DNA of 64,000 nucleotides from positions 6,758,500 to 6,822,499 of the forward strand of contig NW_006921533.1 of the NCBI RefSeq assembly GCF_000340215.1, written 5' to 3'. Made by a program: the position numbers and the translations under genes. This stretch comes from Pseudocercospora fijiensis CIRAD86 (taxonomy: Eukaryota > Ascomycota > Dothideomycetes > Mycosphaerellales > Mycosphaerellaceae). Shown here in pieces: positions 30,995-63,331 of this stretch. The notes beneath the pieces were generated by a model that had not been told where the DNA came from, searched no databases, and was given only the letters and a program-made list of their open reading frames with translations. How positions within the stretch are numbered: the first letter of the stretch is position 1; every line of letters begins with the position of its first letter.

Positions 30995-31094
30995 NNNNNN
31001 NNNNNNNNNNNNNNNNNNNNNNNNNNNNNNNNNNNNNNNNNNNNNNNNNNNNNNNNNNNNNNNNNNNNNNNNNNNNNNNNNNNNNNNNNNNNNN
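30995..31094. other. assembly gap of exactly 100 N
   Basis: The round number suggests a scaffold gap of unknown true size. The length of the 24.4-kb element is therefore a minimum or approximate value. Confidence 0.98.
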
Positions 31095-53939: not shown

Positions 53940-56282
53940 TTAAAATTTCTCCATGAAATTCTTCCTGACAGTCCACATTCTCGCCCTCTTGCCATAGATA
54001 TACATAGGTATAGTGGTTAGCAGGCAAGCCAACTGAATTCCTCCGATCGCAATGAAGACATCTCGACTTCCATCGGACTCAAGCCAATGGTTGAAGAACA
54101 GACTCCAAACGAGACCGTGCAAGATGTTCTTGCTGAAATTCAAGGTGACGAGCGCTTCGCCAGCGTACTGACGATAAGAGTCCACGGCAAAAGTGATGCT
54201 GGTTGTCGATCCGAGAGAGCATCCAAAGGATATGAAGCCGAAGAAAAGGGTGGGAACGATCCAAGCGTCGCGTTCTTGTGCGCTCCAACCAAAGCCCATG
54301 AGCCCAATGACGGTGAAGATGGCAATTGGTATGGCCATGACAAGTCTGAACTCTGGTTCGTAGATGCCTCCGTTCCGTCGAGCCATCCACCGCACTATGA
54401 CGTCGCTCACTTTTCCAGCGACTGCAGTGCCCAGGACTCCGCCCACGAATGGCGAAATATAGACCAGTCCAGCCTGTAAAGACGTGAAGTTGTAGCTGTC
54501 GCGAGAGATGTATATTGTGGTCACCGATTCGGAAAGGACGATGAGCCAGCCAATGGACAAAGAGTACACAAGAGCCGACCATAACAAGGAAGGATAAGTG
54601 TAGAGGATGAATGGGCGGACTGCGACCTTCAGCCATCTATCACGAGTCATGCGTCCGGACCACGGGCGGAGCTGTTCGATATACGACTTTGCTGGTTGGG
54701 ATGAGAAATGCTTGGTGTATGCGTTCCGCGGGTCGTGATGATCGCTCAGATCGGTGGGCACTCGCGACAGCTGAGGATGAGCCTCTTCCAAGTGGCCTGG
54801 AGATACCGGTCGATTGTTGAAGTAATCCTCGCCAGATATCTTATGCTCATCGAACGACCGCGCCTTCGGTGTTTGTGGCGATGGCGGCGCAGCTTCAACC
54901 TTGAGTTGCTCGCGGTCTGGCTTCTCTGCAGGCGTTTGATCCGCAGATTGCACATCTTTCTCGTCTTCTGAAGCTTCAGTAGTAAAGTGTGCATGTCGCT
55001 CCGACTTTGGTTCTGGATGATCGTGGTTGTCTGCTGGTATACTTGCAGCCTCCTTGTGCGTTTTGCGCTCCGCAGCTGGGCTTCCTGGACGCGACAAGGT
55101 CCTGATGACATGAGACATGCTGAAGTTGCTGTGCCGTTGACGCTGCTTATGGGGTATAGGCGAACGATCCCAAAAGGTCTCTGGGACGAAAAAGAAGAGC
55201 AGACAAAGTCCAAAGCCCACGACCATGGCGACCACCCAGAACACCCTACCATCATGTCAGTTGCGTCCACATTCGTGGTAGAAGTGCATGGCTTACCATC
55301 TCCATCCCAGGCTTTGTATCACCGCCGCGCTGACCAGCGGGACGAGATTCTTGCCTCCCAGCAGGAGAAGCGTGTATATACCTAATCTGTATGCCTTTTC
55401 GTGTAAGAAGTAGATCTCGGCAACTGTAGCAGAAGGCAGGCATTCAACGCTGCTAACAGCAAAGCCTTGAAAGATGCGAGCGCACACGAGACTGGCAAAG
55501 TTAGGCGACAAGGCACACCAGACGCCGGAGAGTATGAAGCAGACGGCGGCGATCAGATAGACAGGTCGCTTGCCGTATAGAATGGCCGTAGGACTGAGCA
55601 CTACACTTCCCAGTCCAAGTCCCATCATGTATAGTCCTGTGGTCAGGGCGACCCGTGGCACAGAAACGTTGTACTCTTCCGCAACATCGTGAAATCCAGC
55701 AGCCAGAATCGGCGTCATGCCTCCGCCGACCATGCAATAGAAGCCAAGAGACAGCAGCGCTGCGTCTCTGCGCCAGACTTTCCAGTTCAGCGGATCGTTG
55801 GCGCTATCGTCAGGCTGCGGTTCGAGAACGAACTTGCCGTCCGCTGTAGTTTTCTTTTCTGGTTGGCGAAGGCCAAGCCGCCATCTGCGTATGCTCGTAG
55901 AAGAGCTCGAACGCGAGGGAGCTCGAGGTCGTGGAGACTGTGGAAATGATGAGGTCGAGTTTCTCGCGGGCGCATTGCGCATTCCAAGCGGCTCATTGAA
56001 CTGCGAGACCTTGCTCAGCAGCAAGACCGAGCCAGGTACTTCTTCAGTATCTGGATTCAGCATGCCCATGTTCCATCTTGTTGGCTTGCTCTTGCTGCCT
56101 CTTTCGTACTCAGGCCCTAAACGCATTTCGTCGGATGTCGTCTGGCTCTTCTTCGTATTGGCACTGCTGTCTTCTCGACGACCAAGCATAAGCTTCCAGT
56201 CGAAGCGTCTGTTTGCGCGGCCATTCGCCGCCTGCTCATGCGGATGAGGACCTGCCTCGTCCTTCTCTTGTGTAGAAGCCAT
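53940..56282 (-). CDS. MFS transporter, DHA1-like, one intron
   Basis: Exons complement(53940-55245, 55297-56282), 763 residues. The 51-nt intron (GTAAGC...TAG) splits the Trp codon in LGWRW-VFWVV. N-terminal cytosolic region of about 165 residues, rich in Ser/Arg; then the DHA1 entry motif DDSANDPLNWKVWRRD, six TM segments with YGKRPVYL after TM2 (motif A position), and RIFQGFAVSSVECLPSATVAEIYF (motif around TM4). The loop between TM6 and TM7 is about 170 residues long, acidic and Ser-rich. The second half has TM segments starting FILYTYPSLLWSALVYSL and ending YIYGKRARMW. It resembles HOL1-type plasma-membrane drug/cation:H+ antiporters; the substrate is unknown. Starts at the first ATG of a long open frame. 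Divergent from nothing nearby that suggests a cluster. Confidence 0.88.
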
Positions 56283-62513: not shown

Positions 62514-62519
62514 AAAAAA
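62514..62519 (-). terminator. oligo-T RNA polymerase III terminator
   Basis: Six T on the minus strand, starting five bases after the discriminator C73 of the tRNA-Pro gene. No run of four or more T occurs inside the gene or its introns. Confidence 0.75.
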
Positions 62520-62550
62520 GAAGTGGGTCAAACCGTGGATTGAACACGGG

Positions 62551-62601
62551 CTACATGAAAGTCAGCATGTGGTAGAAATTCGCTGGACCAGTTGGACGTA
62601 C
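62551..62601 (-). other. tRNA intron 3, spliceosomal-type, 51 nt
   Basis: GTACGT donor, GCTGAC branch-like motif 12 nt before the acceptor TAG. It separates GCGAGAGGT from CCCGTGTTC at the variable loop/T stem boundary. Confidence 0.7.
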
Positions 62602-62611
62602 ACCTCTCGCA

Positions 62612-62629
62612 ATTCGTTCTTAGGGTGAA
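62612..62629 (-). other. canonical tRNA intron at 37/38, 18 nt
   Basis: Follows G37 and precedes T38. CCCTAA inside it is complementary to TTAGGG of the anticodon loop, as usual for introns removed by the tRNA splicing endonuclease. Confidence 0.8.
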
Positions 62630-62642
62630 CCCTAAGCGAGAA

Positions 62643-62701
62643 CTGCCGATTGTCAGGACGCAAGGCCACAATCGCAACCAGGAAGCATGATGTCTACTCA
62701 C
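62643..62701 (-). other. tRNA intron 2, spliceosomal-type, 59 nt
   Basis: GTGAGT donor, CTGAC branch-like motif about 11 nt before the acceptor CAG. It separates GGTATGA from TTCTCGC in the 3' part of the D arm. Confidence 0.7.
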
Positions 62702-62720
62702 TCATACCACTAGACCATTT

Positions 62721-62774
62721 CTGTACGACGTTAGAACCTATGAGACGCAGACTGAACCAAACGGTTTAACTCAC
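62721..62774 (-). other. tRNA intron 1, spliceosomal-type, 54 nt
   Basis: GTGAGT donor, TTCTAAC branch-like motif ending 10 nt before the acceptor CAG. It separates GGTC from AAA of the acceptor 5' strand; only removal restores the seven-base-pair acceptor stem. Confidence 0.7.
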
Positions 62775-62778
62775 GACC

Positions 62779-63331
62779 GAGGGCAAGCGACACGCTTGAT
62801 TGGTCAGCTTGGATTTGCTGTTCTAACATGTAAGCTTGATTGAAGACATGGATCGATTCCGGAGCATCTCGAGCGTGAAGATTCCACTCTCGAGAGCTCA
62901 AAAGAGGCTCAGAGAATTTCCATGTCCAGTTGTATAGTCCCTATCAATTCCGAGCACCTCTTATAATCCGAACGGCGAGAAAAAAATGTATTGGAAGATT
63001 TCTAGCATCTTGGGCTTTCCCGGACCAACCTCCGGCCTTCTCCACCCTTCTGTACCGAACGTCTTGCACCTTACTCTTCACAGCTCTTTCCGTTCCTCAT
63101 GGTCCAGGAACAGGTCTCGCATTTCGAGGATGCTTGTTGACTGATAAGACAGAATCGTTCAGATGAAGCTGAGAAGAAGATGTCTGCAAACGTATTCTAA
63201 TGGAAGAAAAAGGAGAGCCGCACAATCGACCCGTGCCGGGAACGCCTACCAACGTCGATCCGCAAACAACACCGAAAGGAAAACATTTTCTCCTTCGATC
63301 GGGATCGCCGCTACAGTATAATCTTCCATAT
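62779..63331. other. intergenic region upstream of tRNA-Pro
   Basis: 5' flank of the tRNA gene and beyond. No TATA-like element is convincingly placed and no coding exon is recognised. Confidence 0.4.

Follow-up and report, generated by a model that had tools for sequence, protein, structure and literature searches.

Can a nuclear tRNA gene carry introns of the kind that are spliced out of mRNA precursors and still give rise to a tRNA? The question is raised by a locus of the fungus Pseudocercospora fijiensis, in the window (the whole 64,000-nt stretch of DNA that we analyzed). An earlier note had described this locus as a tRNA-Pro gene with three spliceosomal-type introns in addition to its canonical one, and had left two readings side by side, that the introns are spliced or that the gene is a recently interrupted copy that no longer works.

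The structure of the window gene

We confirmed a tRNA-Pro(AGG) gene on the minus strand, from 62778 to 62525, with three GT..AG inserts and an 18-nt canonical intron. The starts (GTGAGT, GTGAGT, GTACGT), branch motifs (CTAAC, CTGAC, CTGAC) and ends (CAG, CAG, TAG) of inserts 1 to 3 are those given in the note. The features are listed below, with insert positions on the tRNA in our own numbering and with A and B boxes placed by their consensus sequences.

62797..62803, minus strand: CCAATCA box, beginning 25 nt upstream of the gene; common to many tRNA genes of this genome
62525..62778, minus strand: tRNA-Pro(AGG) gene, whole predicted transcribed body, with 62778 as the 5' end; identified by ARAGORN, once spliced, as tRNA-Pro(agg)
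62775..62778, minus strand: exon 1, GGTC, tRNA positions 1-4; placed by the structure-only excision test and by the CCAAT box upstream
62721..62774, minus strand: spliceosomal-type intron 1, 54 nt, GTGAGT..CTAAC..CAG, between positions 4/5
62702..62720, minus strand: exon 2, AAATGGTCTAGTGGTATGA, positions 5-24; A box at about 62717-62707
62643..62701, minus strand: spliceosomal-type intron 2, 59 nt, GTGAGT..CTGAC..CAG, between positions 24/25; placed by splice signals and paralogue gaps
62630..62642, minus strand: exon 3, first part, TTCTCGCTTAGGG, with the AGG anticodon, to position 37
62612..62629, minus strand: canonical tRNA intron, 18 nt, at 37/38; placed by ARAGORN
62602..62611, minus strand: exon 3, second part, TGCGAGAGGT, positions 38-47 (exon 3 overall spans 62642-62602, with the canonical insert, 62629-62612, inside it)
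62551..62601, minus strand: spliceosomal-type intron 3, 51 nt, GTACGT..CTGAC..TAG, between positions 47/48; placed by splice signals and paralogue gaps
62525..62550, minus strand: exon 4, CCCGTGTTCAATCCACGGTTTGACCC, positions 48-73; B box GTTCAATCC at about 62545-62537
62514..62519, minus strand: six-T stretch starting 6 nt past the gene, a likely Pol III terminator

Spliced in silico, the gene has 7/7 acceptor pairs and 5/5 T-stem pairs, so the perfect acceptor and T stems that the note had reported were recovered by count. What excision leaves is a cloverleaf with conserved stems, as in a functional nuclear tRNA, and not the decayed stems and relaxed exons of a tRNA pseudogene. ARAGORN calls the spliced form tRNA-Pro(agg) with an 18-nt intron and calls no tRNA in the unspliced region, and Rfam searches of the whole window at the gathering threshold returned no match. 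The 18-nt insert alone sits at 37/38, the position of canonical eukaryotic tRNA introns, whereas the remaining inserts, at 4/5, 24/25 and 47/48, carry mRNA-type signals, with the branch-like A 10, 10 and 11 nt from the end of introns 1, 2 and 3, respectively. The A box and the B box are each uninterrupted. The window also contains an assembly gap of 100 N at 30995-31094, far from the tRNA gene. A PAPS reductase encoded in the window has 96% identity to a protein of Pseudocercospora fuligena and 93% to a P. eumusae protein.

We consider it very likely that this is a tRNA-Pro(AGG) gene, probably transcribed by Pol III, from which the spliceosome removes three inserts and the tRNA-splicing endonuclease removes the 18-nt insert, and that it is one of 25 such genes found in the genome.

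Interrupted tRNA genes across the genome

The earlier note had proposed looking for other tRNA genes split in the same way, and 24 more nuclear ones were found, giving 30 spliceosomal-type introns in 25 genes of the same genome. The genome (73.9 Mb in 30 contigs) was searched with RF00005, with a pattern for the Pro anticodon arm and with patterns combining a B box and a terminator, and the resulting stretches were read by eye; a further genome search for a T loop plus splice donor added no new gene. By our own reading the interrupted genes span 18 isoacceptors, with introns at many positions of the tRNA.

Pro(AGG): window gene, three introns; L032 (C3:1162324), 38/39
Pro(TGG): L033, T loop; L034, 6/7 and T loop
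Pro(CGG): L035, T loop
Asp(GTC): L025, 4/5; L064, D loop; L063, 49/50
Ala(CGC): L066, 4/5; L091, 25/26
Ala(AGC): L036 and L041, D loop
Gly(GCC): L070, T stem; L087, D loop
His: L071
Leu: L073, 3' acceptor strand
Ser(TGA): L074
Ser(GCT): L028
Thr(TGT): L075
Gln(CTG): L076
Val(CAC): L077
Arg(TCT): L079, two introns
Arg(CCT): L088
Arg(ACG): L095
Glu(CTC): L085, two introns

Another 23 nuclear tRNA genes were found uninterrupted. The list is incomplete, since these searches turned up no nuclear gene for Asn, Cys or Trp. Only one sample had been collected without selecting for introns 5' of the T loop; it comprised 45 rows at 31 distinct places and yielded 18 resolved tRNA genes, nine interrupted and nine uninterrupted, the other 13 places being non-tRNA or unresolvable. 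Loci at which the gene could not be resolved were left out of the count (L027, L068, L069, L078, L081, L082 with two places, and L089).

For the 24 interrupted genes other than L032, ARAGORN called every spliced form a tRNA (24/24) and only 5/24 unspliced forms, three of these with the wrong identity. Together with the lack of any Rfam match in the window, this means that standard tRNA finders undercount here. Its isoacceptor for the spliced form agrees with ours in 19/24 genes and differs for L064, L073 (also Leu, with another anticodon), L079, L088 and L095; these disagreements would be due to where ARAGORN places the canonical intron.

Inserts resembling the canonical 37/38 intron occur in most of the other interrupted genes; L066 (G000:C2:3312080-3312380), an Ala(CGC) gene, has an intron at 4/5 and, at the canonical site, an insert of 79 nt. 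In L032 (G000:C3:1162324), a 57-nt GT..CTAAC..TAG segment at 38/39 abuts the canonical intron, so that two splicing systems would act at adjoining sites; ARAGORN reads a single 72-nt intron there, and the two can be read as one anticodon-loop intron.

Several other tRNA-like loci were seen along the way. A His-like locus (L027:1501-1591, minus strand, ARAGORN gtg) has a 19-nt insert seemingly at about 33-35, on the 5' side of the anticodon loop and not at 37/38. L082 (G000:C7:3353050-3353650) consists of two adjoining tRNA-like units whose acceptor and T arms are intact and whose anticodon regions are long and hairpin-like. L068 and L097 (G000:C2:6209700-6210360) hold a Leu(TAA)-like 3' part, with no 5' exon found within about 600 nt upstream. 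Dispersed tRNA-like repeats with a B box and oligo-T (L023, L024, L029, L030 and L072) are SINE-like, and such repeats made up most of the matches listed in the first B-box search. A tRNA cluster at L006 (G000:C1:2531984-2535055), one member of which has the anticodon tca, resembles mitochondrial DNA inserted into a nuclear contig.

Splice signals, boundaries and probable transcription

All 30 introns begin with GT and end with AG, 25/30 begin with GTNNGT, and the acceptors are TAG (15), CAG (12) and AAG (3). Lengths run from 51 to 65 nt, with a median of 55.5 nt (n=30). A CTRAY motif whose A lies 9-19 nt before the 3' end is present in 30/30 introns, compared with 10% of shuffled introns. GT..AG ends and a branch-site motif, both hallmarks of U2-type spliceosomal introns, are thus found throughout, and removal as a lariat is predicted. 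We also tried using mRNA introns predicted de novo in the window as a yardstick and dropped the comparison, since it gave five candidates, too few, and the branch motif had been required in their selection; the one trusted candidate, at 55246-55296 between two MFS ORFs, is 51 nt long and reads GTAAGC..CTGAC..TAG.

Some junctions had been set by eye with the splice signals in view, and we therefore ran two tests blind to these signals. The first scored every 40-90-nt excision by the resulting cloverleaf, with gene ends and canonical introns fixed by annotation. The annotated excision was among the best for 20/30 introns, and the sole best for eight, while another excision scored higher for 10/30. 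In the window gene, the annotated excision of intron 1 was the single best of all, that of intron 2 fell one point below another excision, and that of intron 3 was tied with 113 others.

The second test compared paralogues without regard to splice signals, and the best gap placements included GT..AG in 18/21 comparisons. The three misses were window intron 1 twice (against both L033 and L032, the acceptor stems differing) and L035 against L039 (the lengths differing), whereas for window introns 2 and 3 GT..AG was among the best placements against these same two Pro genes. Several pairs are almost identical outside the introns: L034 and L033 match at 72/72 exon positions with one possible gap placement, L070 and L087 at 71/71 and L063 and L064 at 70/72, both of these in both directions, L036 and L017 at 71/72, and L095 and L008 at 70/74. 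Such pairs, in which one of two near-identical copies has an intron that the other lacks, fix the intron boundaries.

Within 40 nt upstream, 15/25 interrupted and 10/23 uninterrupted genes have a CCAAT box, compared with 15/483 background windows. With 25/48 examined nuclear tRNA genes carrying it, CCAAT(CA) is likely an upstream promoter element of tRNA genes in P. fijiensis. Six genes have a first exon of 4-10 nt; the box precedes exon 1 in 5/6 of them and exon 2 in 0/6. The window gene likewise has the box before its 4-nt exon 1 and none before exon 2, and this position supports the short exon independently of folding.

Since the spliceosome normally acts on Pol II transcripts, these genes could be spliced by it and yet be transcribed by Pol II rather than Pol III. 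We regard this as improbable. A run of at least four Ts follows within 60 nt downstream of 22/25 interrupted genes, and two of the three exceptions, L064 and L071, were examined over flanks of only 27 and 9 nt (TTTTT does follow L064). TTTTT is absent from all 30 introns, the interrupted genes share their CCAAT box with uninterrupted tRNA genes, and the A and B boxes of the window gene are each contiguous. The Pol II alternative does gain from the fact that TTTT, rarer in the introns than in base shuffles, is not rarer than in dinucleotide shuffles; after this control we dropped TTTT depletion as evidence for Pol III.

Probable retention of the spliced products and relation to known systems

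The Pro(TGG) pair L033/L034 shares a T-loop intron. Its exons are identical (72/72), whereas the shared intron matches in 43/56 columns and the 3' flank in 45/55 (exon versus intron divergence, P = 9e-6). The shared intron is probably older than the duplication, and identical exons around a diverged intron suggest that selection has kept the spliced product. In the Ala pair L036/L041, exons and intron do not differ in this way (66/72 and 47/54, respectively, P = 0.56). Across the 25 interrupted genes, the acceptor and T stems contain one mismatch in 300 pairs, compared with four in 204 pairs for 17 genes that lack such introns (the unresolved L027 and 16 of the 23 uninterrupted genes).

For three isoacceptors, pattern searches allowing up to three mismatches found no uninterrupted gene. 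The Asp(GTC) core occurs only in L063 and L025, both interrupted elsewhere, and the third Asp(GTC) gene, L064, is broken inside the search pattern. The Gly(GCC) core occurs only in L070, which is interrupted in the T arm, and L087 is again broken inside the pattern. The Pro(AGG) pattern matched 28 loci, all of which were run through ARAGORN and 12 considered by eye; L032 is the only Pro(AGG) among them. Intact copies with more than three mismatches, or absent from the assembly, would escape these searches. A whole-gene DNA search for more Pro(AGG) genes returned only the window gene itself and carries little weight, even the stretch it has in common with tRNA-Ala having gone unreported. Five ORFs in the window use the matching codons (CCT 29, CCC 9, GAC 49, GAT 42, GGC 66 and GGT 39). 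Unless intact genes have been missed, intron removal must be required for the fungus to live.

The interrupted loci could instead be non-functional copies that never mature, with the cell relying on intact genes, which was the second reading of the earlier note. Uninterrupted copies do exist for some isoacceptors (for example L017 for Ala(AGC), L008 for Arg(ACG), L012 for Gln(CTG) and L039 for Pro(CGG)), and L041, with 67/72 identity to L017, carries a stem mismatch. We nevertheless reject this reading as very unlikely, given the recurrence of the pattern in 25 genes, their intact stems, the Pro(TGG) exons conserved around a diverged intron, the upstream CCAAT box common to interrupted and uninterrupted genes, and the lack of uninterrupted Asp(GTC), Gly(GCC) and Pro(AGG) cores in the pattern searches. 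Several intact tRNA-Pro(AGG) genes elsewhere would have favored a dead copy, and the sole other Pro(AGG) gene found itself carries GT..CTAAC..TAG. The note's first reading, that spliceosomal-type introns entered a tRNA gene and are spliced, gains support from the same recurrence and the intact stems; the splicing itself we infer.

What can be read from the sequence is a consistent set of mRNA-type signals, a cloverleaf that is intact after excision, pairs of paralogues of which one has an intron that the other lacks, and conservation of the Pro(TGG) product. For spliceosomal removal we envisage that Pol III would transcribe the whole unit up to the oligo-T, that the spliceosome would excise the GT..AG introns by intron definition, and that the tRNA endonuclease and ligase would then take out the 37/38 intron. 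The fold on which the endonuclease and RNase P rely is broken by the inserts, so the spliceosome's step would probably come before theirs, inside the nucleus, and a working tRNA would be the end product. One pre-tRNA would pass through two unrelated splicing machines. It is likely, if somewhat less so than the reading of the window gene, that protein synthesis in this fungus depends directly on the spliceosome, with about half of the nuclear tRNA genes, among them all those detected for Asp, Pro(AGG) and Gly(GCC), giving Pol III transcripts that need the spliceosome, often before the endonuclease cut, and with spliceosomal introns having spread through an entire class of Pol III genes, in any arm of the tRNA.

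Spliceosomal-type introns in genes for small structured RNAs have precedents in fungal U6 snRNA and U3 snoRNA. Pol III makes U6, and the fission-yeast U6 gene carries an mRNA-type intron (PMC10484740). According to a 2017 paper, no small structured RNAs other than U3 and U6 were known to be interrupted often by an intron (PMC5832005). These are single gene families, whereas here many tRNA genes are interrupted at many positions, some of them also with a canonical tRNA intron. We considered U6 as a further invaded Pol III gene in this genome and rejected it, as its two full-length matches have no intron-sized insert.

A parallel in gene structure is the red alga Cyanidioschyzon merolae, in which nuclear tRNA genes can carry several introns each, in the D, anticodon and T arms (PMC9602550), attributed to the endonuclease and BHB motifs (PMC4090602). 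That the three inserts are likewise ectopic tRNA introns cut by the endonuclease, with GT..AG incidental, is highly improbable and is disfavored on signals alone, since the endonuclease has no role for GT..AG with CTRAY in 30/30 introns or for the narrow 51-65-nt range. The BHB pairing test does not separate the two readings: a full central helix is found in 1/30 introns under strict scoring (2.5% of shuffles) and in 4/30 with the best of five registers (13% of shuffles), and the canonical introns of these genes also score no higher than shuffles, so the test is without power.

Searches of open-access papers other than preprints turned up no description of spliceosomal introns in tRNA genes. 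The parts are known; a spliceosomal class of tRNA intron has no precedent in the papers that these searches covered. If the spliceosomal reading holds, it would breach the usual division between nuclear tRNA introns, cut by the tRNA-splicing endonuclease, and mRNA introns, which need the spliceosome, and it suggests that short Pol III transcripts with exons down to 4 nt can be spliced. It would also tie tRNA supply to the splicing apparatus, and would provide naturally occurring intron gains, next to near-identical paralogues that are uninterrupted, for studying intron origins.

The earlier note had raised an introner-like origin. Introner-like elements and intron gain are known in Dothideomycetes, the same fungal class (PMC4457414). 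Such elements are near-identical and multicopy. The introns found here, in contrast, matched only their own loci: a search of limited sensitivity returned 27 matches, each at its own locus among the 25 genes, and no further copies in the genome, so an introner family is not supported. The introns of L025 and L076, which lie in different tRNAs, have their first 12 nt in common (GTGAGTACCACC), perhaps a trace of common origin.
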